From: Pseudomonas paralcaligenes
GTDB taxonomy: Bacteria > Pseudomonadota > Gammaproteobacteria > Pseudomonadales > Pseudomonadaceae
DNA length: 64,000 nt
Direction: 5' to 3'
Assembly (NCBI RefSeq): GCF_019655855.1
Contig: NZ_BPFX01000004.1
Location: 248,001-312,000, forward strand
Positions 7,621 through 58,607 of the stretch are shown piece after piece. The translations under genes and the position numbers were made by a program. Under the pieces are notes generated by a model. It was not told the origin of the DNA. It worked only from the letters and a program-made list of their open reading frames with translations, and made no database searches. The first letter of the stretch is position 1. Every line of letters starts with the position of its first letter.

Positions 7621-7681
7621 CGTTCACCTCAGATTGCGCATCCGGTCGGGCGCCGGGCGTCGCCGCCCGGCCCCTTCCCTG

Positions 7682-43866: not shown

Positions 43867-43901
43867 CAGTGGGTCTCCTGTCGTCGGTCGTGTACGGCTC
43901 T

Positions 43902-43917
43902 TGCAAGCAGGATACCC
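43902..43917 (-). promoter_or_regulatory. Possible sigma-54 promoter of the nitrilase cluster
   Basis: On the minus strand GGGTAT, 5 nt, TTGCA keeps the GG-N10-GC spacing of -24/-12 promoters, and the predicted start would lie about 25 nt before the nitrilase ATG. The -24 half is a weak match to TGGCAC, so this is tentative. Confidence 0.35.
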
Positions 43918-44033
43918 ACCGGCCGGCATCGACGAGCCAGGAAAAATGTCGTCGCTGCCGAGCAAAATGTTCACTCGTCACATCCTGGTCTGCGGCTAAG
44001 GTGGGCGAAAAACAAGATCGTCCGAGGTTTTGC

Positions 44034-44933: not shown

Positions 44934-44974
44934 GGTGAGGAGGGTTGGAGGCATGCTGCTTGTGCGTGGCCCCG

Positions 44975-45066
44975 CTGGATTCCCGCCTGCGCGGGAATGA
45001 CGGAGTGGGTGGGAAGACATGTGCCAAACCCCCTACCTCGTCATTCCCGCGCAGGCGGGAACCCAG
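44975..45066. repeat. 90-bp paired palindrome, left copy flanking the GIY-YIG gene
   Basis: Two inverted hairpins, GGATTCCCGCCTGCGCGGGA near 44977 and TCATTCCCGCGCAGGCGGGA near 45041, are joined by about 35 bp (GGAGTGGGTGGGAAGACATG...). The whole unit recurs in the same orientation at 45483-45594. Confidence 0.85.
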
Positions 45067-45164
45067 ACAGGCAACTCCTCCCCCCACCTGAACAACGAGG
45101 CAACCCCGGCCACCAGCGACTAGACTCGCCGCCAAAGGAACACCAACGTCCAGGAAGGACACCC

Positions 45165-45464
45165 ATGCCCAGGCAACCTGCCGTCTACATCCTCGCCAGC
45201 CAGCGCAATGGCACGCTCTATATCGGCGTCACCAGCCACCTGCTCAAACGCATCTGGGAGCACCGCAACGACTGCGTCGAGGGCTTCACCCGCCGCTATG
45301 GCGTGCACCAACTGGTCTACTACGAGATGCACGAGAACATGCCCGCCGCCATCGAGCACGAGAAGCGGCTGAAGAAGTGGCGACGGGAATGGAAGCTGCA
45401 TCTGATCGAAGCGGGCAACCCTGGGTGGCGGGACTTGTGGGAGGAGATCGTGGGGCGGGCTTGA
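45165..45464 (+). CDS. Small GIY-YIG endonuclease-domain protein
   Basis: 99 aa, a single GIY-YIG domain (UPF0213/YhbQ-like): VYILASQRNGTLYIGVTSHL carries the paired tyrosines, HLLKRIWEHRND the arginine and histidine, and EHEKRLKKWRREWK the distal part with its catalytic glutamate region. AAGGAC precedes the ATG. No DNA-binding extension is present. The gene sits alone between two direct copies of a paired palindrome (44975-45066 and 45483-45594), unlike any metabolic gene here. The cellular role of such solitary domains is not established. Confidence 0.88.
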   Translation: MPRQPAVYILASQRNGTLYIGVTSHLLKRIWEHRNDCVEGFTRRYGVHQLVYYEMHENMPAAIEHEKRLKKWRREWKLHLIEAGNPGWRDLWEEIVGRA

Positions 45465-45482
45465 GGCTTGTTGGCTTTTGTT

Positions 45483-45594
45483 TGGGTTCCCGCCTTCGCG
45501 GGAATGACGGAGTGGGTGGGACGGCACAGCGCCAAATCCCCTACCCCGTCATTCCCGATCCCTACCCGTCATTCCCGCGCAGGCGGGAATCCAG
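45483..45594. repeat. Paired palindrome, right copy flanking the GIY-YIG gene
   Basis: GGGTTCCCGCCTTCGCGGGA at 45484, spacer GGAGTGGGTGGGACGGCACA..., then CGTCATTCCCG twice (45547 and 45567) and CGCAGGCGGGAATCCAG. The second hairpin carries a 20-bp internal tandem duplication absent from the left copy. Confidence 0.85.
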
Positions 45595-45612
45595 CGACGC
45601 CCCCGCAGCAGC

Positions 45613-46773
45613 CTAGGCCGCAGGCACCCGCATCCACTCCACCAACCGCGCCAGCAGCGCATCGCACTGCGCCAATTGATCGAGGCTGACGTACTCGTCC
45701 GCCTTGTGGCCCTGATCCATGCTGCCGGGGCCGCAGATGACGGTGGCGATACCGGCCTCGTCGAACAGGCCGCCCTCGGTGCCGAAGGCCACGGTGGAGA
45801 AGTTCTCGTGGCCGCAGAGCAGCGCCAGCAGGCGCGCCGCCTCACTGGCCGGCCCGGTGAGCAGGCCGGGGTAGCTGGAGAGTTCGCTGAAGCGGATGTC
45901 GCTGGTCGCGCTCACCGCGCGCATGCGCGGCAGCAGCTCGCGCTCGGCGTAGTCGCGCAGCTCGGCGGAGACCCGTTGCGGATCGTCGGCCGGCAGGGCG
46001 CGTATCTCGAAGTCGAAGCGGCATTCGGCCGGGACGATGTTGAGCGCCCGGCCGCCCTGGATGACGCCGGTCTGCACGGTCGAGAACGGCGGGTCGAAGC
46101 GCGCGTCGTGGCGCTCGGGGGCCGCCAGGCGCGTGCCGATCTCGCCGAGGCGGCCGATCAGCCTGGCCGCGTATTCGATGGCGTTGACCCCCTGCGGCGC
46201 GTAGGCCGAGTGGCAGGCCGCGCCGTGCACCTCGCAGCGCATCGCCAGCTTGCCCTTGTGGCCGAGCACCGGGCGCATGGCGGTGGGTTCGCCGATGATG
46301 CAGATGGCCGGCCGCTCCGGGCTGGCGCGCAGGCGCTCAACCAGGCTGCGCACGCCGAGGCAGCCGACCTCCTCGTCGTAGGAGATGGCGATGTGCAGCG
46401 GCAGGCGCAGCGGCCGGGCGAGGAAGGCCGGGACGGCGGCCAGCACGCAGGCGATGTAGCCCTTCATATCGGCCGTGCCGCGGCCGTACAGGCGGACGTC
46501 GCGCTCGGTCAGCTCGAAGGCCGGCAGCGTCCACGGCTGGCCGTCCGCCGGCACCACGTCGCTGTGGCCGGAGAGCATCACCCCACCCGGCCCGGAGGGG
46601 CCGATGCGGGCGTACAGGTTGGCCTTGCTGCGGTCGTGGTTGAACAGCAGATCGCTCTCGACGCCCAGGCCGGCCAGGTAGGCGCGCACATGGTCGATCA
46701 GCGCCAGGTTGGACAGGCGGCTGGTGGTGTCGAAGGCGATCAGGTCGGCGAGCAGGTCGCGGCTGGAGGGCAT
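45613..46773 (-). CDS. argE: ArgE-type M20 deacylase (acetylornithine deacetylase family)
   Basis: 386 aa metallopeptidase-fold hydrolase. Metal-site segments are LSGHSDVVPAD (His), YGRGTADMKGY (Asp), SYDEEVGCLG (Glu) and a C-terminal GPGSMDQGHKADEYV (His). ArgE removes acetyl from N-acetylornithine; M20 relatives also cleave N-carbamoyl or other N-acyl amino acids. Here it follows FMO-RidA-DUF1028 with only a repeat between, which suggests a catabolic deacylase rather than the biosynthetic enzyme. Symbol by family. Confidence 0.85.
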   Translation of the reverse strand: MPSSRDLLADLIAFDTTSRLSNLALIDHVRAYLAGLGVESDLLFNHDRSKANLYARIGPSGPGGVMLSGHSDVVPADGQPWTLPAFELTERDVRLYGRGTADMKGYIACVLAAVPAFLARPLRLPLHIAISYDEEVGCLGVRSLVERLRASPERPAICIIGEPTAMRPVLGHKGKLAMRCEVHGAACHSAYAPQGVNAIEYAARLIGRLGEIGTRLAAPERHDARFDPPFSTVQTGVIQGGRALNIVPAECRFDFEIRALPADDPQRVSAELRDYAERELLPRMRAVSATSDIRFSELSSYPGLLTGPASEAARLLALLCGHENFSTVAFGTEGGLFDEAGIATVICGPGSMDQGHKADEYVSLDQLAQCDALLARLVEWMRVPAA

Positions 46774-46796
46774 GGTCGGCTACCGTGGAAGCAAGC

Positions 46797-46834
46797 GGTG
46801 CGCGCGGCGCACCCTACGGGTAGCCGCGCGCACC
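46797..46834. repeat. Short GTGCGC...GCGCACCCTAC palindrome
   Basis: GGTGCGCGCGGCGCACCCTA followed by GTAGCCGCGCGCACC in the gap between the DUF1028 and M20 genes. It is a shortened copy of the family at 14864 and 61478. Confidence 0.65.
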
Positions 46835-46845
46835 AGGGGAACCGT

Positions 46846-47520
46846 TCACTCGTCGCCCGGCACGCCGTAGCTCGGCGCCTGGGTCGGGTCGAGGGCACGG
46901 GTGATGTAGTCGTGCAGCTGCGGCTCGTAGGCGCGCCAGAGGTCGTCCAGCGCACCGATCGGGTCCTCGTCGGCCCAGTCGACGCGCAGGTCGACCACCG
47001 GCCACACCAGATCGCCGACCACCGAGAGCGCCGCCGAATGCACCGGCCCGGCCTCGCCGCCGGCGGCCATCGCCGCGTGCATGGCGGCCAGCAGGCGGTC
47101 CGGCAGGCCGCCGCCGCTCTGCTCGAAGGCCTCGACCATGGCGTCGATCACCGCCGGCGTGCTCAGCAGGTTGCCGGCCGCCACGCACTGCTCGCCGGCG
47201 CGGGCGTGGTGCACGCCGAGCGCCTCGCTGCCGGTGAAGTGGGCGCAGGCGCCGTGGCTGTCGATCACCGTCACCTGGCGGTACTGGCCGTAGCCGTTGC
47301 GCGTCAGCGCCTTGTCCAGCGCCGCCGCGGGCGCCTCGCCGGCTTCCAGCAGGTCGAGCACCTGCGGCCCGAGCGCCGGCAGGGTGATGTTCTGCGTCGA
47401 CACCGCGCCGACCCCGGCCCGCAGCCAGGGACAGCGGGCGCCGACGGCGATGCTCGACGAGCTGATGGCGATGCCCAGCTGGCCGGTCTCGGCGCAGCGG
47501 CCGACGATGGAGAAGGTCAT
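46846..47520 (-). CDS. DUF1028-family protein
   Basis: 224 aa. The N terminus MTFSIVGRCAETGQLGIAIS, SSIAVGARCPWLRAGVGAV and the downstream VVDLRVDWADEDPIGALDDL are characteristic of DUF1028, a family thought to have an Ntn-hydrolase-like fold and often next to RidA and amidase genes. No reaction is established. The ATG overlaps the RidA stop (ATGA), so the two are made together. Confidence 0.85.
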   Translation of the reverse strand: MTFSIVGRCAETGQLGIAISSSSIAVGARCPWLRAGVGAVSTQNITLPALGPQVLDLLEAGEAPAAALDKALTRNGYGQYRQVTVIDSHGACAHFTGSEALGVHHARAGEQCVAAGNLLSTPAVIDAMVEAFEQSGGGLPDRLLAAMHAAMAAGGEAGPVHSAALSVVGDLVWPVVDLRVDWADEDPIGALDDLWRAYEPQLHDYITRALDPTQAPSYGVPGDE

Positions 47521-47945
47521 GGGCGCGCCTCCCAGTCGTCGGGGATGACCGCGATCACGTCGATCTCCATCAGCCACTGCGGCTGGCCGAGGGCCGACAC
47601 CACCAGCCCGGTGGAGATCGGGAACACGCCCTTGAGCCACTTGCCGACCTCCTGGTAGACCGGCTCGCGGTAGCGCGGGTCGATGAGGTAGGTGGTGGTC
47701 TTAACGATGTGCGAGAGGTCGCTGCCGGCCTCTTCCAGCAGCTGCTTGACATTCTTCATGGCCTGCTCGGCCTGCGCGCGCGGGTCGCCGAGGCCGACCA
47801 GCCGGCCCTCGAAGTCGGTGCCGACCTGGCCGCGCACGTACACCGTGTTGCCGGCGCGCACGGCCTGGCACAGGTCGTTGTCCAGGGTCTGGTTGGGGTA
47901 GGTGTCCCTGGTGTTGAACATGCGGATGCGGGTATGGGTGGGCAT
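47517..47945 (-). CDS. RidA/YjgF-family protein (enamine/imine deaminase-like)
   Basis: 142 aa. RidA proteins hydrolyse reactive imines and enamines made by PLP or flavin enzymes. Recognisable parts are GNTVYVRGQVGTDFEGRLVG, QAEQAMKNVKQLLEEAGSDL and LVVSALGQPQWLMEIDVIA. It overlaps the FMO stop by 1 nt and the DUF1028 start by 4 nt. Next to a flavin N-oxygenase this is a reasonable clean-up enzyme for an imine product. Confidence 0.88.
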   Translation of the reverse strand: MPTHTRIRMFNTRDTYPNQTLDNDLCQAVRAGNTVYVRGQVGTDFEGRLVGLGDPRAQAEQAMKNVKQLLEEAGSDLSHIVKTTTYLIDPRYREPVYQEVGKWLKGVFPISTGLVVSALGQPQWLMEIDVIAVIPDDWEARP

Positions 47946-49291
47946 CAGCGGACTCCCGGAAGGCTGACTTTCTGTGGGGCCTGCGCTTCGCGCTGCGTGG
48001 CGTCGCGGTAGGCCTGGTACTTGCGCTGGGTGGCGATGTGGTCGGCGACGTGCTTGGCGTCATGCCACACGCCCCAGATGAAGGTGGAGCCACGGCGCGA
48101 CAGCCAGGGCAGGCCGACGAAGTACACCCCCGGCTCGCTGGACACGCCGCGCTGGTGCCTGGGCTTGCCCCGCTCGTCGAAGGCCGCCACCTGCAGCCAG
48201 GAGAAGTCCGTGGCGTAGCCGGTGGCCCAGATGATCGAGGTGATCCCGGCGGCCCGCAGGTCCAGTTCGAGGATCGGCTGGCTCACGCACTCCGGCTCGG
48301 GGAAAGTTTTGCGCGCCTCCGGCTCCTCCGGCAGGTCGAGGCCGTTGCGGGCGATGTAGGCGTCGGCGGCGTCCAGCAGCGACAGGTAGTTCTCGTCGCC
48401 GCGCGCCAGGTTGTCCGCCAGGTCGTCCTGGAAGCGCACCCGGTCGCCGTCGAAGGCGCGGGTCAGGCCGACCAGGGTGATGCCCTCGCCGGCCAGCCGG
48501 CGGAAGTCGATGGTCTCGCCGCCGCGGGCGCCGCTCACGGCGATGGTCACGTGTTCCTTGCCCGGCTGGGCGGCCTCCATGTCCCACAGGCCGAGCACGC
48601 CCAGCCACCAGACGAAGTCACGACCCCGATAGCTGCGCGGCGGCCGGTCGTGGGCGCCGACCGAGAGGTAGACGCGGCGCCCGGCGCGGTTCAGCTCGTC
48701 GGCGATCTGCACGCCGGAGGAGCCGGCGCCGATCACCAGCACCGCCCCCTCGGGCAGCTGCTGCGGGTTGCGGTAGTCGGCGGAGTGCAGCTGCAGGACC
48801 GCGCCGTCCCGCGGCGCGATGGCCGGGATCACCGGGCGCTGGAACGGGCCGGTGGCGGCCACCACCCGGTTGGCCTGGATCGTGCCGATCGAGGTCTCCA
48901 CGGTGAAGCCGGGGCGGTCGGCGTTGCGCAGCACCCGCTTCACCTCCACGCCGGTGCGGATCGGCGCGTCGATCTGGCGGGCATAGGCCTCGAAGTAGTC
49001 GGCGACCATGTCCTTGTGCGGGAAGGCGTCGGGGTCGATGGCGAATTCCAGGCCGGGGAAGCGGTCGTGCCAGGCCGGGCCGTTGGCCACCAGCGAGTCC
49101 CAGCGGCAGGTGCGCCAGGCCTCGGCGATGCGGTTCTTCTCCAGCACCAGGTGGGGAATGCCGAGCTTGCCCAGGTGTTCGCTCATGGCCACGCCGGCCT
49201 GCCCGGCGCCGACCACCAGGGTATCGATCTCGATCTTTTCGACCGGCCGGCCGGTGAGACTCTGGAGGGTGGGTTGCTGCGGCTCGGCCAT
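47945..49291 (-). CDS. Flavin-containing monooxygenase (FMO/BVMO-like)
   Basis: 448 aa, class B flavoprotein. FAD motif VVGAGQAGVAMSEHLG (near residue 25), the FMO-identifying region LQLHSADYRNPQ, NADPH motif VIGAGSSGVQIADEL, and the C-terminal ATGYATDFSWL are all present. It would hydroxylate or oxygenate a nitrogen, sulfur or carbonyl group with NADPH and O2. It heads the four-gene FMO-RidA-DUF1028-ArgE cassette; GAGGAAAG precedes the ATG. The substrate is unknown. Confidence 0.88.
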   Translation of the reverse strand: MAEPQQPTLQSLTGRPVEKIEIDTLVVGAGQAGVAMSEHLGKLGIPHLVLEKNRIAEAWRTCRWDSLVANGPAWHDRFPGLEFAIDPDAFPHKDMVADYFEAYARQIDAPIRTGVEVKRVLRNADRPGFTVETSIGTIQANRVVAATGPFQRPVIPAIAPRDGAVLQLHSADYRNPQQLPEGAVLVIGAGSSGVQIADELNRAGRRVYLSVGAHDRPPRSYRGRDFVWWLGVLGLWDMEAAQPGKEHVTIAVSGARGGETIDFRRLAGEGITLVGLTRAFDGDRVRFQDDLADNLARGDENYLSLLDAADAYIARNGLDLPEEPEARKTFPEPECVSQPILELDLRAAGITSIIWATGYATDFSWLQVAAFDERGKPRHQRGVSSEPGVYFVGLPWLSRRGSTFIWGVWHDAKHVADHIATQRKYQAYRDATQREAQAPQKVSLPGVR

Positions 49292-49837: not shown

Positions 49838-50680
49838 TCAGGCCGGCACGCCGCGGGTCAGCTGTTCCAGCAGTTCCAGGTCGGTGTTCATGCCCGAGGT
49901 CTCGCGGATGCGGGCGAGGATTTCCTTCTTGAGGGCGAGGAATTCGGCGGACAACTTCATGTCCTGGTGGCGCTCGGCCGGCAACGGTACCTCGTAGACG
50001 GTGTCGATGCGCCCCGGGCGCGGCGCCATCAGCACCACCCGGCCGCCGAGGTAGATCGCCTCCTCGACGTCGTGGGTGACGAACAGGATGGTGCTCTTCT
50101 CCAGCCGGTGCACATGGCGGATCAGGTCGTGCATCACCTCGCGGGTCTGCGCGTCGAGGGCGCCGAACGGCTCGTCCATCAGCAGGATCTGCGGCTTGGG
50201 CATCAGCGCGCGGGCGATCGCCACGCGCTGCTGCATGCCGCCGGAGAGCTGGTTGGGATAGGCCCCGGCGAAGGCCGACAGGCCCATCAGGTTGAGCAGC
50301 GCGTCGGCGCGGCCGCTGGCCACCTCGACGTCGGCGTCGCCGCGCACAGTGTCGCTGACCACCTTGAGCTGGCGGCAGAACCTGATGTTCTCCATCACCG
50401 TCAGCCAGGGGTACAGGCTGTAGTGCTGGAACACCATGGCGCGGTCGATGCCGGGGCCGTGGATCGGCCGGCCGTCGACCAGTATCTCGCCGGCGCTGTG
50501 CTGCTCCAGGCCGCCGATGCTGCGCAGCAGGGTCGACTTGCCGCAGCCGGAGGCGCCGACGAAGGTGATGAACTCGTTGGCGCGGATGTCCAGGCTGACA
50601 TCCTGCAGCGCCTGCACCTCGCGGCCCTTGCTCTTGAACAGCTTGCCCACGCGGCGCACTTGGATCTTGCTCTCGTTCAT
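49838..50680 (-). CDS. ABC transporter ATP-binding protein (system 2, riboswitch operon)
   Basis: 280 aa. Walker A VGASGCGKST, signature LSGGMQQRVAIARA, Walker B ILLMDEPFGALD, and LFVTHDVEEAI. It belongs to the nitrate/taurine/guanidine-associated ATPase group and is a paralogue of the one at 37011. It is the last gene of the riboswitch-controlled operon; 5 nt separate it from the permease. A C-terminal tail (ETSGMNTDLELLEQLTRG) extends beyond the core. Confidence 0.9.
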   Translation of the reverse strand: MNESKIQVRRVGKLFKSKGREVQALQDVSLDIRANEFITFVGASGCGKSTLLRSIGGLEQHSAGEILVDGRPIHGPGIDRAMVFQHYSLYPWLTVMENIRFCRQLKVVSDTVRGDADVEVASGRADALLNLMGLSAFAGAYPNQLSGGMQQRVAIARALMPKPQILLMDEPFGALDAQTREVMHDLIRHVHRLEKSTILFVTHDVEEAIYLGGRVVLMAPRPGRIDTVYEVPLPAERHQDMKLSAEFLALKKEILARIRETSGMNTDLELLEQLTRGVPA

Positions 50681-50685
50681 GGCGC

Positions 50686-51522
50686 TTACCTCTTCATCCA
50701 GGGGAAGGCCACCCGGCCGAGCCAGCGGAACGCCTGGTCGGTGAGCAGGCCGATGACGCCGATCAGGATGATGCCGGCGAAGATCTTGTCGGTGTGCATG
50801 TAGCGCTGCGCCTTGAGGATGGCGTAGCCGAGGCCGGAATTGGCCGCCACCAGCTCGGCCACCACCAGGTAGGTCCAGGCCCAGCCGCAGGTGATGCGCA
50901 GGGTGTCGAGCAGCGCCGGGCGCGCCGAGGGCAGGATCACCAGCTTGACGATCTCGCCGCGCGAGGCGCCCATGGTCTGCGCCGCCTCGATCTGCGCCAT
51001 GGGCACCCGGCGCACGTCCTCGGCCACCATCAGCACCATCTGGAAGAAGGTGCCGATGAAGATGATCAGCACCTTGGAGCCCTCGTCGATGCCGACCCAC
51101 AGCATGATCAGCGGGATGAAGGCCACCGCCGGCATGTAGCGGATGAAGTCGGTGAGCGGCTCGAGGAACGCCTGTACCGGGCGATAGGTGCCGATGTACA
51201 GGCCCAGCGGCAGGGCGATCAGCGCCGAGGCGGCGAAGCCGGCCATGACCCGGTACACGCTGATGCCGATGTCGGCAAGCAGGCCCTCCTCGCTCCACCA
51301 GCGGCCGACCCGCGCCAGCACCGCGTCCGGGCCGGGCAGGAACATCGGGTTGGAGACCCCGGCAGCGCTCGCCACCCACCACAGCAACAGCGGCAGCAGC
51401 AGGCCGGCGGCGGCCAGGCCCCAGATCGCGCCGCGCGGCAGCTCGCCGCGGATGACCCACCAGCGCGGACGGGGCGGCGCGACGCTGGGGCGGCTCTCGG
51501 GCAGGGGTTGATGGGCGGTCAT
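50686..51522 (-). CDS. ABC transporter permease (system 2, riboswitch operon)
   Basis: 278 aa. After a proline-rich cytoplasmic start come about six helices, with FIRYMPAVAFIPLIMLWVG and the transport loop EAAQTMGASRGEIVKLVILP. Its ATG at 51522 overlaps the upstream stop (ATGA). Paralogue of the permease at 37832. With the ATPase and the receptor at 57370 it forms a complete importer split across the two ends of one operon. Confidence 0.9.
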   Translation of the reverse strand: MTAHQPLPESRPSVAPPRPRWWVIRGELPRGAIWGLAAAGLLLPLLLWWVASAAGVSNPMFLPGPDAVLARVGRWWSEEGLLADIGISVYRVMAGFAASALIALPLGLYIGTYRPVQAFLEPLTDFIRYMPAVAFIPLIMLWVGIDEGSKVLIIFIGTFFQMVLMVAEDVRRVPMAQIEAAQTMGASRGEIVKLVILPSARPALLDTLRITCGWAWTYLVVAELVAANSGLGYAILKAQRYMHTDKIFAGIILIGVIGLLTDQAFRWLGRVAFPWMKR

Positions 51523-52271
51523 GGCGTCACCTCCTCGGCGAACAGGGGCGACTCGCGGCGCTGCCATCCGCCTGCGGGAGGCAGCGCACCGAGTTCGGCC
51601 AGCACGGCGGTAGTCAGGGCCCGGTCGAGTCCGTCCGGATCGACCGTCGCCGGCAACAGGGCCTGGCCGGCGCGGCCGGCCAGGGTGGAAAGCTCGATGG
51701 CCCAGGGCGTGGCGCCGCCCCGGTGACGGCCGAAGGACAGCTCGAAGGCCAGCAGCGCCTTGGCGTCGCCCTCCGCCAGCAGCGCGCTGAGCGACTCGGC
51801 GGGCGGCAGTATGGCCCCGCGCCCGGCGGCGAACAGGAAATAGTCGCCGGCCAGCAGCAGGCAGCCCTGGCGGCCGCCGTTCGCCACGAGCCACACGCCC
51901 CAGTTGCGCCCGAGCGATTCCGGCAGGCGCTCCCAGACCTCGTGGTAGCTGCCGTCGAGACCGTCCTCGAGCAGGTAGTCGGCGCGCTCGAAGCGCATGC
52001 GGCCGATGTCGTCGCGGCCGCTGGGCGGCTGGAAGTCGATCGCCCGGTGCCACTGGCAGATGTCGCCATCGATGGCGGTGACGCCGGCGAAACCGGCCTG
52101 CAGCGCGCGCCCGGCGGCGTCCCGCGGGCCGGGCTGGGGAATGCGCAGGTCGGCGAACAGGCTGGCGGTCTGCAGCCAGTACACGGCGGTGGCGGTGTCG
52201 TGCACGCCATCGGTGGTGGTCAGCAGGGTGCGCTGCCACACGCCCAGGTAATGCTCGGGTACGGACTTCAT
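51519..52271 (-). CDS. Unknown soluble protein in the riboswitch operon
   Basis: 250 aa, no domain that I recognise, no signal peptide and no membrane helix. The sequence has HYLGVWQRTLLTTTDGVHD, YWLQTASLFADLRIPQPGP and GNWGVWLVA-like beta-rich segments (RNWGVWLVANGGRQGCLLLA), which suggest a lipocalin- or barrel-like fold, but that is a guess from the pattern. It overlaps both neighbours by 4 nt (isochorismatase-type gene upstream, permease downstream), so it is an integral member of the operon. An enzyme of the pathway or a substrate-binding accessory is possible. Confidence 0.75.
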   Translation of the reverse strand: MKSVPEHYLGVWQRTLLTTTDGVHDTATAVYWLQTASLFADLRIPQPGPRDAAGRALQAGFAGVTAIDGDICQWHRAIDFQPPSGRDDIGRMRFERADYLLEDGLDGSYHEVWERLPESLGRNWGVWLVANGGRQGCLLLAGDYFLFAAGRGAILPPAESLSALLAEGDAKALLAFELSFGRHRGGATPWAIELSTLAGRAGQALLPATVDPDGLDRALTTAVLAELGALPPAGGWQRRESPLFAEEVTP

Positions 52272-52894
52272 GCGCCCTCCCACTCGGCCAGCAGTGCGGC
52301 GCTGTCGAGCACGCGGCCGAAGATGCCGCCTTCCACCGCGACCATGGCCAGGGCCGCGGCGTGCAGCGCCGGGTCGGCCGAGGCGCAGGCGTCGGAGACC
52401 AGGGTGCAGGCGTAGCCGAGGTCCACCGCGCTGCGCAGGGTCGAGGACACGCAGACCTCGGTGGTCACCCCGGTGATGATCAGCTCGGTGATGCCGCGAT
52501 TGCGCAGCAGCAGTTCCAGGTCGGTGGCGGCGAAGGCGCTATAGCCGGGCTTGTCGATCACCGGCTCGCCCGGCTCCGGGCGCAGCTCGTCGATCAGGTC
52601 GTGGCCGAATTCGCCACGCACCAGCAGGCGGCCGAGCGGGCCACGCCCGCCGATGGGCGCACCGGCGGCCTCGGCGCGGCGGCGCTTGAGTGCCGGCAGG
52701 TCGGACAGGTCCGGGCGATGGCCCTCGCGGGTGTGCAGCACCAGCAGGCCACGGGCGCGGGCGCCGGCCAGCAGGCGCTGGATCGCCGGGATCGGCGCGC
52801 GCAGGCGGCCGACGTCGAGGCCGGCGCGGTCGGCGTAGCCGCCCGGCGCGCAGAAATCGCGCTGCATGTCGATCACGATCAGCGCGGTGCTCAC
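52268..52894 (-). CDS. Isochorismatase-fold cysteine amidohydrolase (biuret/ureido-hydrolase type)
   Basis: 208 aa from a GTG that overlaps the creatininase stop (GTGA). Catalytic D9 (VIDMQRDFCAPGG), K115 (VIDKPGYSAF) and C148 (TGVTTEVCVSSTLR) are present. The segments DFCAPGGYADRAG and HTREGHRPDLSDLP are typical of the branch that contains biuret hydrolase and ureidoacrylate hydrolase; N-carbamoylsarcosine hydrolase of creatinine degradation also has this fold. It is therefore likely to cleave a carbamoyl, ureido or amide bond, releasing ammonia. Exact substrate unknown. Confidence 0.88.
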   Translation of the reverse strand: MSTALIVIDMQRDFCAPGGYADRAGLDVGRLRAPIPAIQRLLAGARARGLLVLHTREGHRPDLSDLPALKRRRAEAAGAPIGGRGPLGRLLVRGEFGHDLIDELRPEPGEPVIDKPGYSAFAATDLELLLRNRGITELIITGVTTEVCVSSTLRSAVDLGYACTLVSDACASADPALHAAALAMVAVEGGIFGRVLDSAALLAEWEGA

Positions 52895-53655
52895 AGGGCG
52901 AACTCCTTGCGCACCGCGCTGGCGATGCCACCGGCGATGTCGGCGGCCATCAGCGCGCCCTTCTCCGCCGTCGAGCCCCTGGCCGAGGACAGCACGCCGG
53001 ACGGCGGCACCCATTCGGTACGCGGCGGGTACATGTCGTAGGGCGGGAAGTCGGCCGGGCCGTCGTCGGGAATCAGGTCGAGGCGCACCAGCTGCGGCAG
53101 GTAGTGCAGCATCAGCGAGGTCTCGATCACCGCCGCGTGTTCCAGGGCGAAGCCGGGGAAGCCGTCGGGGAACACGTCGGCCAGGGTCTGCTCGGTGCAG
53201 AAGTCCCAGTGCTCCAGGCGCATCACCCGCAGCGCGCTCTGCGGCCCCAGCTCGCGGATCGCCAGCTCGATGCCCTCGGTGACGAACCACTGGTTCTCGT
53301 AGTGGCCGTCGACCAGCACCAGGCGGGTCACGCCGTGGCGGGCGAACTCGCGCACGGCGTCGCGCACCAGGGCGATCAGGGTCTGCCCGTCGAGGCTGGT
53401 GGTGCCGCAGAAGTGGTTGCCGCCGCCGCACTTGGGCTGCGACTTGTAGCCGTAGGACAGCGCCGGGGCGACCAGGCCGCCGACACGCGCGGCGGCGTCC
53501 TCGCAGATGGCGCTGGCAAGCAGCGCGTCGGTGCCCAGCGGCAGGTGCGGGCCGTGCTGCTCGGTGGCGCCGCAGGGCAGGAACACCACCGGCGACAGTT
53601 CGCGCACGCGGCGCGCGTATTCGACCCAGCTGAGCTGGTCCATGCGTACGGTCAT
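52891..53655 (-). CDS. Creatininase (creatinine amidohydrolase) family hydrolase
   Basis: 254 aa. It matches Pseudomonas creatininase strongly: metal ligands E32, H34 and D43 in GATEQHGPHLPLGTD, YGYKSQPKCGGGNHF, TTSLDG, H118 and E120 in VDGHYENQWF, and E172-H173 in FALEHAAV. Creatininase opens the cyclic guanidine creatinine to creatine. One active-site tryptophan (W154 of the P. putida enzyme, here W150) is kept, but the lid tryptophan W174 is replaced by F169, so substrate range may differ. No creatinase gene is nearby. The ATG at 53655 overlaps the EamA stop; M5 is an alternative start. Confidence 0.88.
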   Translation of the reverse strand: MTVRMDQLSWVEYARRVRELSPVVFLPCGATEQHGPHLPLGTDALLASAICEDAAARVGGLVAPALSYGYKSQPKCGGGNHFCGTTSLDGQTLIALVRDAVREFARHGVTRLVLVDGHYENQWFVTEGIELAIRELGPQSALRVMRLEHWDFCTEQTLADVFPDGFPGFALEHAAVIETSLMLHYLPQLVRLDLIPDDGPADFPPYDMYPPRTEWVPPSGVLSSARGSTAEKGALMAADIAGGIASAVRKEFAL

Positions 53656-54539
53656 GACTTGGCCTCACAGAGAACGGAAGAAGAAGGTCGGCTCGGCCGC
53701 TCGGCGAGCAGCGCGGCGATCAGCACCAGGGCGCCGCCGCTCCATTCGCGCAGGCCCAGCTCGCGCTCGCCGAACCAGGCGGCGGTGAGCACCGCCACCA
53801 CCAGCTCGATCACCACCAGCACCGCCGCGCGGCTGGCCTCGACGTGGCTGAAGCCGTATTGCGCTGCGCCCATGGCGAGCAGCCAGAACAGGCCGAACAG
53901 GGCGATCTGCAGCCACAGGCCGGGCCCGGCCGGTGGCAGCACGGTGTCCTGCAGCAGGCACAGCAGGCCGCCGAGCAACGCCGCGCCGACGAAGGCCACC
54001 ACCGCCTTGCTGGCCAGCGGCACGCGGTCGGCGGCGCGGGTCGCCAGGTTGTTGCAGGCGAAGGCCAGACCGGCGGACAGCGCCAGCCAGTCGCTGCCGG
54101 CGAGTGGGCGGAAGGTGTCGGCGCTGACGCCCAGGGTCAGGGCGATGCCGATCATCGCCAGCGCCAGGGCACCGACGCGGCTGGCGCTGAGCCGCTCGCC
54201 GAGCAGCAGCCAGCCGCCGAGCAGGCCCCACACCGGCGCCAGGTAGAACAGCAGCATGGCGCGCACCACGTCGCCCTCGGACAGCGCACCGACCAGCCCG
54301 GCGGTGGCCCAGCCGCCGCACAGGCAGATCACCGCCAGGGCGCGACGCTGCGGCCACCAGGCGCGCTGCTGGGCGGCCATGACCGGCAGCGCCACCAGGC
54401 ACAGCAGGCCGTAGGTGTAGAGCACCACCGGCATGCCGCGCAGGCCCTGGCCGGCAAGGTGCTCCAGCGGTAGCCAGCCCAGGCCCCAGAAGCTGGCGCC
54501 GAGCAGCAGGACCAGCTCAGGTCTGAAGAGGGGGCGCAT
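53652..54539 (-). CDS. EamA/DMT-family membrane transporter
   Basis: 295 aa with about ten membrane helices in two EamA repeats (starting LLLGASFWGLGWLPL and LALSAGLAFACNNLATR). Drug/metabolite transporters usually export small metabolites. Between the SDRs and the creatininase, and overlapping the latter by 4 nt, it may export a pathway product or toxic intermediate such as guanidine. Known guanidine exporters under these riboswitches are of the SMR or MATE type, so this would be a different family. Confidence 0.85.
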   Translation of the reverse strand: MRPLFRPELVLLLGASFWGLGWLPLEHLAGQGLRGMPVVLYTYGLLCLVALPVMAAQQRAWWPQRRALAVICLCGGWATAGLVGALSEGDVVRAMLLFYLAPVWGLLGGWLLLGERLSASRVGALALAMIGIALTLGVSADTFRPLAGSDWLALSAGLAFACNNLATRAADRVPLASKAVVAFVGAALLGGLLCLLQDTVLPPAGPGLWLQIALFGLFWLLAMGAAQYGFSHVEASRAAVLVVIELVVAVLTAAWFGERELGLREWSGGALVLIAALLAERPSRPSSSVLCEAKS

Positions 54540-54540
54540 C

Positions 54541-55290
54541 TCAGCCGCCCATCCAGGCGCCGCCGTTGGCGCCCAGGGTCTGGCCGTGGAAGAAGCCGGC
54601 CCCGGCCGAGGCCAGGAACAGCACGGCGGCGGCGATCTCCTCCGGGCGGCCGAGGCGCCCGGCGGGGATCGCCGTCTCGCGCGCGACCATCTCCGCGCTC
54701 ATGTGCTCCACCGAGACCATCGGCGTGTCCACCGGCCCCGGGGCCACCGCGTTGATGCGGATGGCCGGGGCGAATTCGCGGGCCAGCGCCTTGGTCAGGC
54801 CGATCACCCCGGCCTTGGCCGCGCAGTAGGCGGCATAGCGCTCGCGGCCGATCTGCCCGAGTTCCGAGGCGATGTTGACGATGCAGCCCTCGCCGCGCGC
54901 CTGCATATGCGCCAGGGCGTGGCGGCAGCAGCGGTACACCGCGTGCAGGTCGACCCCGAGCACCTGCGCCCACTCCTCCTCGCCGATGTCGAGAAAGGGT
55001 TTCTCCAGGATGATCCCGGCGTTGTTGACCAGGATGTCCAGGTCGTCTTCGGCGAGCACCCAGCCGAACATGTCGGCGACCTGCACCGGCGAGGCGACGT
55101 CGGCCTGCACCGCGTGCGCCCGGCCGCCATCGGCGGCGATGCGCGCCACCAGCGCGGCGGCCGCCTCGGGCTGGTCGAGGTGGTTGATCCACACCGTCGC
55201 CCCGGCGTCGGCCAGCGCCAGGACGATGGCCCGGCCGATGCCCTGGGTGGCGCCGGTGACCAGCGCGGTCTTGCCTGCCAGGGGTTTCAT
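54541..55290 (-). CDS. Short-chain dehydrogenase/reductase (SDR 1)
   Basis: 249 aa classical SDR. Cofactor motif TGATQGIGRAI, ILVNNAG, and catalytic S142, Y155, K159 (YCAAK) are all present. The ATG overlaps the SDR 2 stop by 1 nt (TGATG). It would oxidise or reduce an alcohol/carbonyl intermediate with NAD(P). FabG-like in length; the clustering argues for a catabolic role. Confidence 0.88.
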   Translation of the reverse strand: MKPLAGKTALVTGATQGIGRAIVLALADAGATVWINHLDQPEAAAALVARIAADGGRAHAVQADVASPVQVADMFGWVLAEDDLDILVNNAGIILEKPFLDIGEEEWAQVLGVDLHAVYRCCRHALAHMQARGEGCIVNIASELGQIGRERYAAYCAAKAGVIGLTKALAREFAPAIRINAVAPGPVDTPMVSVEHMSAEMVARETAIPAGRLGRPEEIAAAVLFLASAGAGFFHGQTLGANGGAWMGG

Positions 55291-56063
55291 CAGTGCATCA
55301 CCTCGCCGTGGCTGACCGACAGCGCCTGGCCGGTGACGGGCGCGGCCAGCGCACTGCCGAGGAACAGGAAGGTGCCGGCCAGGTCGGCCGGGGTGAGCAG
55401 CTCGGGCACCGCCTGGGCGGCGAGGATCAGCGCCAGTTCGTCGGCCTCGCTGCGGCCGTTGGCCTGAGCCATTACCGCCAGCGAGCGCATCGCCGCGTCA
55501 GTGCCGATCCAGCCCGGGCACACCGCGTTGACGCGAATGCGCCGTGGCCCCAGCTCCCAGGCCAGCGAGCGGGTCAGGCCGATCACCGCGTGCTTGCTGG
55601 CAACATAGGCGGAGAAGCCCGGCACGCCCTTGAGGCCCCAGATCGAGGCCTGGTTGATCACGCTGGCGCCGTCGCGCAACTGCCCCTGCAGGGCACGGGT
55701 CAGGCGCAGCATCGAGGCCACGTTGTTGTCCAGCAGCGCCTGCCAGCGGGCGTCGGCCTCGGTGCCGGTCTCGGCCAGCGGGGTGGCGTACTCCACCCCG
55801 GCGTTGTTGATCAGCACGTCGAGCGGCAGGTGGCCGCACCGTTCGACGTAGGCCGCCACGGCGGCGCTGTCGCCCAGCTCGACGCAGGCCCAGGCCACGT
55901 CGGTCAGCGGCGCCAGTTCGTCGGCCACCGCGGCCAGGGCCTCGGCATTACGGTCGAGCAGTTCCAGCGTCGCGCCGGCCTCGGCGAAAGCCCGCGCCAG
56001 GCCGCGGCCGATACCGCTGGCGGCGCCGGTGAGCAGCACGCGTTTGCCGCGATAGTCGATCAT
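55290..56063 (-). CDS. Short-chain dehydrogenase/reductase (SDR 2)
   Basis: 257 aa classical SDR. LLTGAASGIGRGLA, VLINNAGVEY, and S140, Y153, K157 (YVASK) are present, with the ARDxN-type C-terminal LSVSHGEVMH. Starts 2 nt after the desaturase stop. A pair of different SDRs directly after a membrane hydroxylase suggests stepwise oxidation of a newly formed hydroxyl group. Confidence 0.88.
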   Translation of the reverse strand: MIDYRGKRVLLTGAASGIGRGLARAFAEAGATLELLDRNAEALAAVADELAPLTDVAWACVELGDSAAVAAYVERCGHLPLDVLINNAGVEYATPLAETGTEADARWQALLDNNVASMLRLTRALQGQLRDGASVINQASIWGLKGVPGFSAYVASKHAVIGLTRSLAWELGPRRIRVNAVCPGWIGTDAAMRSLAVMAQANGRSEADELALILAAQAVPELLTPADLAGTFLFLGSALAAPVTGQALSVSHGEVMH

Positions 56064-56065
56064 CG

Positions 56066-57091
56066 TCACACCGCCGTCAGGAAGGACACGCCGACCGCGC
56101 CGTAGAAGCCGTCCGCGCGCTGCGCGCCGCTCGGCTCGACCGCGCCATAGTTGTCGTCGACGACCCGGCGCAGGCGGTGCTGGTGGAAGCTCTTGAGCAG
56201 CAGGCGCATCGGCAGCACCTGGCCGTAGTCGTCGCCGTACAGCTCGTGGTGCAGCCTGCGCAGGCGGTACCAGGGCGCCACCGGCTTCTCGTGGTGGGCG
56301 TTGTGGTAGGCGAAGTTGAGCAGCAGCAGGTCGAGCACCGGCCAGCGCACCGAGACCACGTTGGTGTAGGTGTTCATCTGCTCGTAGGCGCGGTCGCGCT
56401 GCTTGTCGGCGGGAATCTTGCCGCCGTCCTCGAGCACCGCGAAGGCGTCGTAGGTGTGCTGGTAGGCATCGGTGAAACGCAGCACGGTGAGCATGATCGA
56501 CCAGGCCACGAAGTAGAGGATCGCCGCCTTCGGCGACACCACCGCGAGCAGGCCGAACAGCGCCAGGCGCACCAGCAGGGTCAGCGCCACCTTGCGCCGG
56601 TGCGCGCGGTGCTTCTCGTTGGTGGTGATGAACGGCAGCACGATCACGTACCAGTGCATGATCAGCTCCACCGCCGGCACGTAGGCCCATTCGGCGGCCA
56701 GCACCAGACTGCGCAGCCAGCCCGGGCACTTCTGGTTGAGGAACTGCTTGGTGTCGAAGGTGATCACGTCGGCGCGGTCGACGTGGTGGCGCATGTGCTT
56801 CTTGCGCAGGTCCTGGAAGCCGGCGTAGCAGCTGCCGCAAATCCAGCTGGCGACCTCGCCGGCCCACTCGTTGTGCTTGGGTTTGGCGAAGATGGTCCCG
56901 TGGGCGAACTCGTGGATCAGGTAGGCGGCGACGATCATCGCGTGGCCGAGCAGCAGGGTGCCGGCGGCGTTGAGCAGCCAGCTGTCGGCCAGCAGCAGGC
57001 CGATACCGAGCGCGTAGCCGCCGAGGGCGTAGGCGATGGCCAGGCTGTTGGGCACACGGCCGTCGGCATAGCGGTAGATCTGGGTGGACAT
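56066..57091 (-). CDS. Membrane di-iron fatty acid desaturase/hydroxylase-like protein
   Basis: 341 aa from an ATG with GGAGGA upstream. Histidine clusters are HEFAH (residues 60-64), HMRHH (99-103) and HNAHH (263-267), plus H212 in DAYQHTYD, among four or so hydrophobic segments; these bind two irons in the desaturase/AlkB-type superfamily. It differs strongly from the lipid desaturase at 17340 and is locked into a nitrogen-compound operon, so hydroxylation of a small alkylated or cyclic substrate is more likely than lipid desaturation. Electron partners are not encoded here; the rubredoxin at 28626 is a possible donor. Confidence 0.85.
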   Translation of the reverse strand: MSTQIYRYADGRVPNSLAIAYALGGYALGIGLLLADSWLLNAAGTLLLGHAMIVAAYLIHEFAHGTIFAKPKHNEWAGEVASWICGSCYAGFQDLRKKHMRHHVDRADVITFDTKQFLNQKCPGWLRSLVLAAEWAYVPAVELIMHWYVIVLPFITTNEKHRAHRRKVALTLLVRLALFGLLAVVSPKAAILYFVAWSIMLTVLRFTDAYQHTYDAFAVLEDGGKIPADKQRDRAYEQMNTYTNVVSVRWPVLDLLLLNFAYHNAHHEKPVAPWYRLRRLHHELYGDDYGQVLPMRLLLKSFHQHRLRRVVDDNYGAVEPSGAQRADGFYGAVGVSFLTAV

Positions 57092-57153
57092 GGGTTCCTC
57101 CGGATACCGGGTGGCGTCATGGCGACGGGATAGCCCGGCGCCTCTTTCATCCT

Positions 57154-57223
57154 CGTCATTCCCGCACGGGCGGGAGTCCAGTTGCATTGCCTGGCTGGGT
57201 CCCCGCCTGCGCGGGGACGACGG
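57154..57223. repeat. Paired palindrome, first of two tandem copies inside the riboswitch operon
   Basis: CGTCATTCCCGCACGGGCGG ... CCCCGCCTGCGCGGGGACGA in the gap between receptor and desaturase genes. The next copy starts 117 bp further on, in the same orientation. Confidence 0.85.
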
Positions 57224-57270
57224 TCTGGGGCAACACAGAGGCGGGTGGATAACCGCCCTTCTTGCATCCT

Positions 57271-57340
57271 CGTCATTCCCGCGCAGGCGGGAATCCAGTG
57301 GCGTCGCCTGGCTGGGTCCCCGCTTGCGTGGGGATGACGG
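57271..57340. repeat. Paired palindrome, second tandem copy inside the riboswitch operon
   Basis: CGTCATTCCCGCGCAGGCGG ... CCCCGCTTGCGTGGGGATGA, ending 29 nt before the receptor stop codon. Same family as 29525 and the copies around the GIY-YIG gene. Confidence 0.85.
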
Positions 57341-57369
57341 TGGTGGAGTGGCCAGGCGAACCTTTGCCG

Positions 57370-58377
57370 TTACTTGGCCAGGGCCTCGACGAACTGGGCG
57401 TCGAAGGTGCTGGCAAAGTCGGGAATGGCGGGAATCTGGCCGTTGTCCTTGAGCAGCTTTCCGATCACTGCGCCGCTGCCGAAGAACGAGCTGGTGGCCT
57501 CGGACGGCTCGAAGTTCCTGCCCATCTCGGCCAGCGGGATGTTGTACACGCCGCTCATCTGTTCCTTGGCTTCCTCGGCGCTGACGCCGAGCACCTTGCC
57601 GATGATCCCGGCGGCCTCTTCCGGGTGGCTCTGCATGTAGGCCAGGCCGTCCAGGTAGCCCTGCATCAGCGCCTTGATCGCCGCCGGGCGCTTGGCAATG
57701 ACCTTCTCGTCGAACACCAGCACGTCGGTGATCAGGCCGGGAGCGTCCTTGGAGGAGTACACGACGTGGAACTTGTCGCCGGGCATGCCGAGGATCTGCG
57801 ACACGTTCGGCTCGTAGGTCACGCCCACCGGCAGGCTGCCGCTGGCCATCGCGCCGGGAATGCCCTCGGGGGTCATGTTCACCGGGCTGATGTCCTTCTC
57901 CGACAGGCCGTTGCTCTTCAGCGCATAGGCCAGCAGGAAGTCAGACGGCGACAGCGGGTTGAAGCCGACCTTCTTGCCCTTGAAGTTGGCCACCGAGGCG
58001 ACCGACTTGTCGGCGACGATGGCATCGCCGCCGTTGGAGAAGTCGATGGGCATCACCACCCGGTGCTTGAGGCCCTTGGCCACGCCGCCGACCACCTGGT
58101 CGTAGGTCAGCATGCCGCCGTCGAGGGCGTTGCCGGCCAGCGCCGAGGGGATCAGCGCCGGGTCGTTGAAGAATTGCAGTTCGACCTTGAGGTCGTGGGC
58201 CTTGTACAGGTCGAGGGCGTCAGCGACGTAGAACGGGCCGTAGCCGGCCCACACCACGGTGCCGATCTTCATCTTCTCGACGGCCTGGGCAGAAAGCGGA
58301 AGCAGGGCGGCGAGGCTGGCGAAGCAGGCGCCGAGCAGGGTCTTGCGCAGGAAACGCGGGGACAGCATCGGGTTCAT
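57370..58377 (-). CDS. ABC transporter periplasmic binding protein (system 2), first gene of the riboswitch operon
   Basis: 335 aa, NMT1/TauA-like. The signal peptide ends LAALLPLSAQA; the mature protein begins VEKMKIGTVVWAGYGPFYVA, with YDQVVGGVAKGLK, VGVTYEPNVSQIL and DAPGLITDVLVFDEK. TAGGAG precedes the ATG at 58377. Its 5' leader carries a guanidine-I riboswitch and a sigma-54 promoter. Receptors of this type are often found behind ykkC riboswitches. The ligand is probably a guanidine-containing or related nitrogen compound. Confidence 0.9.
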   Translation of the reverse strand: MNPMLSPRFLRKTLLGACFASLAALLPLSAQAVEKMKIGTVVWAGYGPFYVADALDLYKAHDLKVELQFFNDPALIPSALAGNALDGGMLTYDQVVGGVAKGLKHRVVMPIDFSNGGDAIVADKSVASVANFKGKKVGFNPLSPSDFLLAYALKSNGLSEKDISPVNMTPEGIPGAMASGSLPVGVTYEPNVSQILGMPGDKFHVVYSSKDAPGLITDVLVFDEKVIAKRPAAIKALMQGYLDGLAYMQSHPEEAAGIIGKVLGVSAEEAKEQMSGVYNIPLAEMGRNFEPSEATSSFFGSGAVIGKLLKDNGQIPAIPDFASTFDAQFVEALAK

Positions 58378-58420
58378 GGCATTGCTCCTACACGTGGGGA
58401 ATCGGGCACGGGATGACGTC

Positions 58421-58520
58421 ACGTCTCCCGGGCTTTTCTCCCGCCGTGTAGCCCTGCTCCCTAGGGCCGGAAAACTCTCGGACCAGCCATCCACTGCCGT
58501 GGACCGGAACCCTAGTTCGC
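58421..58520 (-). ncRNA. Guanidine-I (ykkC) riboswitch
   Basis: Read as minus-strand RNA, the conserved blocks of the ykkC aptamer occur in order and spacing: CUAGGGUUCCG, a short hairpin (GUCCAC / GUGGAU), GGCUGGUCCGAGAG, a variable hairpin, ACACGGCGGGA and AAAAGCCCGGGAGA. These match the Bacillus ykkC leader almost exactly. It ends 43 nt before the receptor ATG. The 3' part GGGAGACGUGACGUCAUCCC could refold into an alternative hairpin, but no clear terminator U-run is visible, so control of translation is likely. Conservation favours the guanidine subtype over the ppGpp or PRPP subtypes. Confidence 0.93.
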
Positions 58521-58607
58521 CTGTGATGCAGCTCCGATGTGCAAAGCGTCATGAGCGCCAGCCGACTGCGGCCGGCGCGGGTGACTCATCCCGTTCGGAG
58601 AGGATTT

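Follow-up and report, generated by a model that had tools for sequence, protein, structure and literature searches.

The window analysed here, a stretch of 64,000 nt from Pseudomonas paralcaligenes (GCF_019655855.1, contig NZ_BPFX01000004.1, positions 248,001-312,000 of the forward strand), contains a ten-gene operon headed by a Guanidine-I (ykkC) riboswitch. The genes, g1 to g10, span 49838-58377 on the minus strand in a single orientation and with no internal stops, and neighbours abut or overlap except for g1 and g2, between which lies the sole intergenic gap of the operon (278 nt, 57092-57369). By eye, that gap is occupied by REP-like inverted repeats, which account for the weak miRNA-family matches (MIR/mir) that Rfam placed there on both strands at 57188-57344; these fell below the gathering score and were rejected. 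The features are as follows.

58423..58526, minus strand: Guanidine-I riboswitch aptamer (RF00442; 79.6 bits, gathering score 63, full length)
58445..58451, minus strand: switch strand CUACACG in the aptamer's P2/P3 linker, the exact complement of 58388-58394
58388..58394, minus strand: anti-aptamer strand CGUGUAG, overlapping the Shine-Dalgarno sequence UAGGAG (58385-58390)
57370..58377, minus strand: g1, NMT1/SsuA-type ABC substrate-binding protein (SBP), 335 aa (PF09084, 78 bits)
56066..57091, minus strand: g2 (DES), predicted membrane di-iron oxygenase of the FA_desaturase/AlkB fold, 341 aa (PF00487)
55293..56063, minus strand: g3, short-chain dehydrogenase (SDR) (PF13561)
54541..55290, minus strand: g4, FabG-like short-chain dehydrogenase (PF13561; NF009466, 226.5 bits, cut-off 222)
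53652..54539, minus strand: g5, EamA-family transporter (PF00892, 74 bits)
52891..53655, minus strand: g6 (CRN), creatininase-family amidohydrolase with an altered lid (TIGR04448, 374.5 bits, cut-off 235)
52268..52894, minus strand: g7 (ISO), isochorismatase-like hydrolase resembling guanylurea hydrolase (65% identical to the pMET-2 enzyme along 204 aa)
51519..52271, minus strand: g8, homologue of the MgdL-type N-(hydroxymethyl)guanidine lyase, 250 aa (no Pfam or NCBIfam family)
50686..51522, minus strand: g9, ABC permease (PERM) (PF00528)
49838..50680, minus strand: g10, ABC ATPase (ATP) (PF00005)

A preliminary description of this DNA had already placed a Guanidine-I riboswitch at the head of the operon, a claim that the score against the Rfam model bears out; its aptamer (58421-58520) lay on the correct strand and in the correct place, with ends off by a few bases, and the spacer to the g1 ATG at 58377, given there as 43 nt, measures 45 nt. 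The ABC importer, di-iron membrane protein, two SDRs, EamA transporter and creatininase-family enzyme that it named are likewise found by Pfam and NCBIfam profiles and, for g2, by the conserved histidines. The product of g1 additionally scores 94.5 bits against TIGR03427 (putative urea ABC transporter SBP), under the cut-off of 333.9. Adjoining the operon at 43716-49291 we noted by eye genes resembling those for a LysR regulator, an ArgE peptidase, a DUF1028 protein, RidA and a flavin monooxygenase; within the window no riboswitch lies ahead of them, and relatives of RidA and DUF1028 also stand behind the operon in four loci from the GTDB scan described below (L103, L113, L114, L115).

In the whole 64-kb window, the Guanidine-I aptamer (E 1.5e-12) is the only Rfam match over the gathering score, and it carries no mismatch to the upper-case consensus letters of the model. 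R1, our own model built from 19 Guanidine-I aptamers, none of them chosen from a DES locus (the DES status of rows from other families was unchecked), gives it 79.2 bits. We assessed covariation in 61 aptamers of DES loci from 56 sources, five of which (L150, L152, L159, L160, L173) contribute a second aptamer. Changes on both sides are seen in 16 of the 29 base pairs, 93.4% of structure cells pair, and the covariation score is 0.421, as against 0.172 +/- 0.007 for shuffled and at most 0.10 for slid controls, in an alignment fitted to the model and so favouring the score. The block GG(T/A)CCGAGAG is intact in 55/61 aptamers, that of the window among them; the other six (L069, L117, L155, L161, L162, L165) have GGTCCAAG instead of GGTCCGAG. 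In the window the block reads GGTCCGAGAG and includes the expected site of A46, placed here by the block and not by base-by-base crystal numbering; in the crystal structure A46 is the adenosine conserved in Guanidine-I, at a position where ppGpp and PRPP aptamers are reported to have a pyrimidine (PMC6031431).

The minimum-energy fold of the leader pairs the CUACACG strand of the aptamer with CGUGUAG at the Shine-Dalgarno sequence of g1. By folding energy the leader does not stand out (z -1.15, with 25 of 200 shuffles equally good), and the longest complement, taken locus by locus, is weak (p <0.05 in 14/61 and <0.01 in 0/61). In other lineages the corresponding strands are GGCUCC(A) in the aptamer and (U)GGAGCC in the Shine-Dalgarno region. 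At least six exact pairs form between a locus's own switch strand and its own Shine-Dalgarno region in 33/61 cases (shuffled mean 0.72, maximum 4), and are thus absent in 28/61. When all strands were compared with all regions at this threshold, the rates were 0.67 and 0.37 within type and 0.03 and 0.00 across types; with the threshold lowered to five pairs, one side shows less contrast (within type 0.73 and 0.55, across types 0.03 and 0.39). Because the pairing between aptamer and Shine-Dalgarno region varies in step between lineages, we predict a translational ON switch, and infer that guanidine would activate translation of the operon.

The riboswitch and the genes recur together in other genomes. 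Among 298 genomes of the genus, seven (the window's included) have a close DES, at 76-100% identity, and two have a distant copy only. All six orthologous loci outside the window's genome carry Guanidine-I and the same ten genes in the same order; in four (L045-L048) an extra gene of the metallo-beta-lactamase fold (MBL) lies between g7 and g8, and it is absent from this position in the window operon, L044 and L049. MBL is lactonase-like, yet it falls under every curated NCBIfam cut-off listed, and a search for it in the window's own genome, run without a positive control, gave no match. No guanidine riboswitch lies near the distant genus copies (L050-L053); phage-type C4 antisense RNAs occur less than 7 kb from two of them (L050:12588-12784, L053:1553-1639). 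A class-wide search of 369 genomes added ten with DES at 41-56% identity. Guanidine-I is present at four of these loci (L064, L065, L069, L072), and in three (L066, L068, L072) Guanidine-II, an unrelated riboswitch class, lies 18-20 nt ahead of DES; another four (L067, L070, L071, L073) have neither class.

A scan of GTDB genomes gave 453 DES relatives, from which we took the best 80 (L101-L180, 52-92% identity). In 72 of these 80 loci R1 places a Guanidine-I aptamer on the DES strand, upstream of the gene; the chance expectation, from the density in the window's own genome, is about 0.0008 aptamers per 3 kb of one strand. Four of the eight loci without an aptamer end less than 470 bases upstream of DES (L138, L157, L177, L180), and the remaining four (L130, L156, L167, L168) have enough upstream sequence but no guanidine riboswitch by either R1 or Rfam. 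DES directly follows Guanidine-I in L147, as it does in the class-wide L069. Across the same best 80 of 453, contigs that end early included, the counts are SBP 76, g8 63, SDR 62 and 59, CRN 60, ISO 57, EamA 54, PERM 51, MBL 51 and ATP 48, and all ten window genes are present in 39. Hosts include Pseudomonas nitroreducens, Stutzerimonas, Halopseudomonas, Tepidiphilus, Plasticicumulans, Paraburkholderia, Thiomonas and Acidithiobacillus; the two Acidithiobacillus loci have just SBP-DES-MBL-g8, without SDR, CRN or ISO. Some loci hold duplicates: a second, diverged DES (48-51%) lies downstream of the first in L159, L164, L169 and L170, and a second SBP (50-55%) is found in L159, L164 and L170. Acidithiobacillus ferrianus (L173:7223-8775) has a divergent pair of Guanidine-I aptamers: one precedes SBP-DES-MBL-g8, and the other precedes an ABC importer followed by CgdB-like and carboxylase genes.

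The preliminary description had stressed that the genes behind this aptamer are not the usual guanidine set, which is right for the operon, as Pfam and NCBIfam find no CgdA, CgdB, Gca or AtzF among g1-g10, but not for the genome: another contig (C6:194-204 kb) carries ABC importer genes, CgdB, a CgdA-like frame and a carboxylase-like frame. The CgdB scores 327 bits (cut-off 284.7) and lies with the carboxylase-like frame at C6:199-204 kb; that frame stands behind Guanidine-II. The genome has two Guanidine-II aptamers in all and two further Guanidine-I aptamers (L001, L002), which lie 1.3 kb apart at C6:194534-196004, each before an SBP-like match. With CgdB and the carboxylase present, we rejected the operon as the cell's sole guanidine route.

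This co-occurrence is general. CgdB (TIGR03424 over cut-off) is present in 35/35 DES-operon genomes tested out of the 80. In the genus (161/298 genomes overall) it is found in 9/9 DES genomes vs 152/289 others (p 0.0035), and in the class in 9/11 vs 20/358 (p 1.6e-9), both values being uncorrected for kinship. The two exceptions in the class are G485, with a distant DES and no riboswitch, and G581, with both operon and riboswitch; neither has a full-length carboxylase match. Carboxylase and/or CgdB genes lie in the 10-kb flanks of 27 of the best 80 of 453 loci, 16 of these 27 from Stutzerimonas or close kin, and when extra operon ORFs were clustered, most were flanking genes or antisense frames and the carboxylase formed the only useful cluster. 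CgdB-linked carboxylases are reported to use guanidine, not urea (PMC12186494), and by analogy with that literature the carboxylase of DES genomes presumably does the same. Since the usual guanidine set is present elsewhere in the genome, and nearly always in DES genomes, the operon probably feeds the guanidine carboxylase pathway and does not replace it.

The key clue is g8, the gene left unnamed in the preliminary description. Pfam and NCBIfam scans of g8 were empty, and its relatives in the protein database are named "hypothetical protein", with PF16815 on some rows. In a profile search, however, g8 proved homologous to proteins of L209 and L210 whose genes follow those for a carboxylase and an oxygenase (PF03171/PF14226), a gene order that matches the gca-mgdH-mgdL order published for MgdH and MgdL of Vreelandella boliviensis (PMC12508155); atzF is absent behind mgdL in the L210 stretch. 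In two-sequence comparisons with these MgdL-like proteins, g8 is 35% identical to one across 227 columns (E 4e-26) and 33% identical to the other across 234 (E 6e-21). The catalytic D-x-R motif is D41-L-R43 in g8 and Asp49/Arg51 in the L210 protein, numbers identical to those reported for the MgdL catalytic pair (PMC12508155), and it is kept in 63/63 g8 homologues from the best 80 of 453 loci (57 by pattern, six by reading the sequences). The beta-barrel fold expected for MgdL was also found for g8, in Foldseek and VIA-align lists that leave room for other folds. What connects g8 with MgdL is thus the synteny, the numbering of D49/R51 and the homology via L209 and L210, not the V. boliviensis MgdL sequence itself; g8 matches as a homologue of this N-(hydroxymethyl)guanidine lyase, and we predict that it has lyase activity. 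Homologues of g8 (51-56%) also occur in 14/298 genus genomes without DES, and a scan of six such loci (L095-L100) found no guanidine riboswitch, which may mean that the lyase family extends beyond guanidine. In L098 and L099, MgdL-like proteins adjoin ABC permease and ATPase genes.

For g2, nine histidines (H60, H64, H99, H102, H103, H212, H263, H266, H267) are invariant in 41 sequences, and an AlkB/FA_desaturase fold was found, again in Foldseek and VIA-align lists that leave room for other folds. A sequence search of the PDB gave nothing beyond a chance match. The 2-OG/Fe(II) dioxygenase domain that marks MgdH was not found in g2, which belongs to PF00487. One locus, L175, has in addition a 2-OG oxygenase gene upstream of DES (7564-8559) whose product is 42-43% identical to MgdH-like proteins.

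The two hydrolases are also informative. The g6 family keeps E34, H36, D45, H120, E122 and H178 (with one E34 exception in 61) as well as W154. W174 and D175, which we take to be lid residues from the P. putida creatininase, as we take the residue roles in general, are changed in 61/61, W174 to F or Y and D175 to A (F and A in the window), and for this reason we rejected a plain creatininase for g6. The preliminary description called g7 a biuret-type amidohydrolase; it is an isochorismatase-like hydrolase, but its score against the biuret hydrolase model (BiuH, NF050097; 268.6 bits) is under the cut-off of 370, and biuret hydrolase was rejected. The 65% match, NDO41_26705, is the only place matched on pMET-2 and adjoins a nucleoside deaminase, as published for BB_00025, with which we equate it by position. 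Guanylurea hydrolase activity has been reported for BB_00025 of P. mendocina MET (PMC9800807), and guanylurea hydrolase releases guanidine. Both g6 and g7, as judged from their sequences, point to acylguanidine hydrolysis.

We consider it probable that the operon is a guanidine-releasing module comprising import, hydroxylation of the AlkB/desaturase type and splitting of the MgdL type, with the carboxylase route as sink. The ABC importer would bring in an N-alkylguanidine, the likeliest being methylguanidine or something closely related; g2 would hydroxylate the carbon adjoining the guanidine nitrogen, and g8 would split the hydroxylated product to give free guanidine, which would enter the guanidine carboxylase pathway, apparently encoded elsewhere in the same genome. 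The released guanidine would bind the aptamer, freeing the g1 Shine-Dalgarno sequence and raising expression in a feed-forward ON switch. On the best reading, g2 stands in for the dioxygenase MgdH. The SDR pair g3/g4, g6 and g7, whose roles are the least certain part of the model, may oxidise and hydrolyse larger or cyclic acylguanidines and so admit substrates beyond methylguanidine.

Together, import, hydroxylation, splitting, sensing and disposal would account for the riboswitch and the core genes as well as for the co-occurrence and linkage. From a riboswitch over cut-off that precedes a conserved operon in 72 of the best 80 of 453 loci, the lineage-matched Shine-Dalgarno complementarity, the Guanidine-II aptamers before DES, the gene families with the AlkB fold of g2, the homology of g8 to MgdL with its synteny and D-x-R motif, the likeness of g7 to guanylurea hydrolase and the CgdB/carboxylase statistics, we infer the substrate, the g2 reaction and the direction of the switch. 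Several observations count against this guanidine-releasing module: the MgdH/MgdL route, as published, works without g3, g4, g6 and g7; MBL, in 51 of the best 80 of 453 loci, has no role in the model; the operon has no reductase, rubredoxin or ferredoxin to feed g2; there are riboswitch-less g8 homologues (L095-L100) and riboswitch-less DES loci (in the class, in the genus, and L130, L156, L167 and L168); G581 has operon and riboswitch without CgdB over cut-off or a full-length carboxylase; L175 holds both DES and an MgdH-like oxygenase; and the Shine-Dalgarno pairing is weak per locus.

The presence of additional SDRs and hydrolases hints at other substrates as well, including some that resemble creatinine. 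Tentatively, one may picture a widespread pathway, switched on by the guanidine it releases, that converts both creatinine-like cyclic acylguanidines and methylguanidine to free guanidine by means of an SDR, an MgdL lyase, a membrane hydroxylase of the di-iron kind, a creatininase put to new use and a guanylurea-hydrolase-type enzyme that hydrolyses acylguanidines; if true, it would fill the place of a missing enzymatic source for natural guanidine, drawing on a waste product that is abundant in vertebrates. It is less likely still, and on balance doubtful, that the operon is devoted to creatinine or a creatinine-like cyclic acylguanidine, with guanidine or methylguanidine as product. In that scheme g2 would hydroxylate the ring carbon, an SDR would oxidise it, g6 would open the ring and g7 would cleave the acylguanidine, much as in the non-enzymatic creatol route in animals. 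The likeness of g6 to creatininase, with metal and catalytic residues kept, suits this scheme, as do the acylguanidine hydrolase type of g7, the presence of SDR, CRN and ISO beside DES in 62, 60 and 57 of the best 80 of 453 loci, and the report that creatinine is an abiotic source of methylguanidine (PMC12508155). The changed lid in 61/61 g6-type sequences and the two Acidithiobacillus loci that dispense with SDR, CRN and ISO speak against it, and a simple hydroxymethyl lyase suits g8 better.

An operon that oxidises free guanidine itself, as a third degradation route beside carboxylase and guanidinase, is improbable. Guanidine is the expected inducer, DES stands directly behind Guanidine-II (L066, L068, L072) or Guanidine-I (L069, L147), and g1 has its sub-threshold match to TIGR03427; such a route would, however, be redundant where the CgdB/carboxylase route is nearly always present, and g8 matches a lyase that makes guanidine. 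Just as improbable is a cluster for the detoxification and uptake of diverse guanidinium compounds, where lipophilic guanidines (galegine or dodine, for example) would be modified by g2 and the SDRs and exported by g5. Enzymes with an FA-desaturase fold typically have greasy substrates. EamA is found in 54 of the best 80 of 453 loci, and guanidine riboswitches are reported to be frequently tied to efflux genes (PMC12186494), but the first operon gene is the binding protein of an ABC importer, the hydrolases are of the small-substrate kind, and g8 is homologous to MgdL, an enzyme whose reported specificity for N-(hydroxymethyl)guanidine is narrow (PMC12508155). Finally, it is scarcely credible that the aptamer senses ppGpp, PRPP or a nucleoside diphosphate and that the genes have nothing to do with guanidine: ykkC RNAs are reported to have switched ligand several times (PMC6031431, PMC5912903) and six of the 61 aptamers carry the variant block, but we rejected a ppGpp/PRPP variant because the Guanidine-I blocks are intact in the window and the gene context, with its carboxylase/CgdB linkage and with Guanidine-II at the same gene in other bacteria, is that of guanidine.

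To return to the guanidine-releasing module, the preliminary description had seen in this locus an undescribed way of obtaining nitrogen from a guanidine compound. A link of this kind is supported by the genuine aptamer and by the import and catabolic genes, but the principle, release of guanidine by hydroxylation and then splitting under the control of a guanidine riboswitch, has been in print since 2025 for methylguanidine, with an oxygenase unrelated to g2 (PMC12508155). What is new relative to it, as not found in the literature searched, is the di-iron oxygenase and the enlarged enzyme set. In the open PMC literature, including the available text of PMC11410670, PMC7266159, PMC7736828, PMC9788692, PMC2211319, PMC3766115, PMC2864571 and PMC12625717, we found no such set under a guanidine riboswitch, although an earlier listing beside ykkC RNAs is possible. 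The same literature gave no report combining a guanidine riboswitch with creatininase, or creatininase with guanidine and fatty acid desaturase, and only off-topic titles for a guanidine riboswitch with metallo-beta-lactamase; the desaturase that it names with guanidine carboxylase is the arginine desaturase NapI. For many proteobacteria the operon offers a concrete candidate system that would release guanidine enzymatically, through a predicted oxygenase that is not related to the 2-OG dioxygenases reported to do so. The question reduces to ordinary assays of one membrane enzyme, one lyase, two hydrolases and one RNA, and a function is suggested for one branch of AlkB-like enzymes as well as for the g8 family, whose members are named only "hypothetical".

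Each component can be set against a known system. Unlike AlkB alkane monooxygenase (8f6t, 8sbb), to which it is 13-15% identical, g2 has no rubredoxin partner and a predicted substrate that is small and cationic. With P. putida creatininase (PDB 1j2t, 3a6e), g6 shares 126/250 aligned positions, a score over the curated cut-off and the metal and catalytic residues, but in all 61 g6-type sequences W174 and D175 are replaced. With BB_00025, g7 shares 65% identity over 204 aa and a score of about 270 bits against the biuret hydrolase model; whereas BB_00025 is plasmid-borne, g7 lies on the chromosome, is preceded by a riboswitch and occurs in many environmental species, which makes metformin-derived guanylurea an unlikely original substrate. 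The guanidine carboxylase pathway (SBP-PERM-ATP, CgdAB, Gca, AtzF) has the same riboswitch class and distantly related SBP and ABC genes, and is a genomic neighbour in 27 of the best 80 of 453 loci, but its CgdA, CgdB, Gca and AtzF are not part of the window operon. The closest parallel is the MgdH/MgdL system, which, as described in the available text of PMC12508155, likewise combines Guanidine-I control, a carboxylase sink, an ABC importer and an oxygenase and Asp-x-Arg lyase in one operon. It uses a 2-OG dioxygenase where the window operon has a predicted membrane di-iron protein of the AlkB/desaturase type, and it is named there in the halophiles Vreelandella and Salinisphaera, whereas the DES operon occurs in Pseudomonas, Stutzerimonas, Halopseudomonas, Paraburkholderia, Acidithiobacillus and others, stands apart from the carboxylase operon, and adds SDRs, EamA and the creatininase-like and guanylurea-hydrolase-like enzymes.
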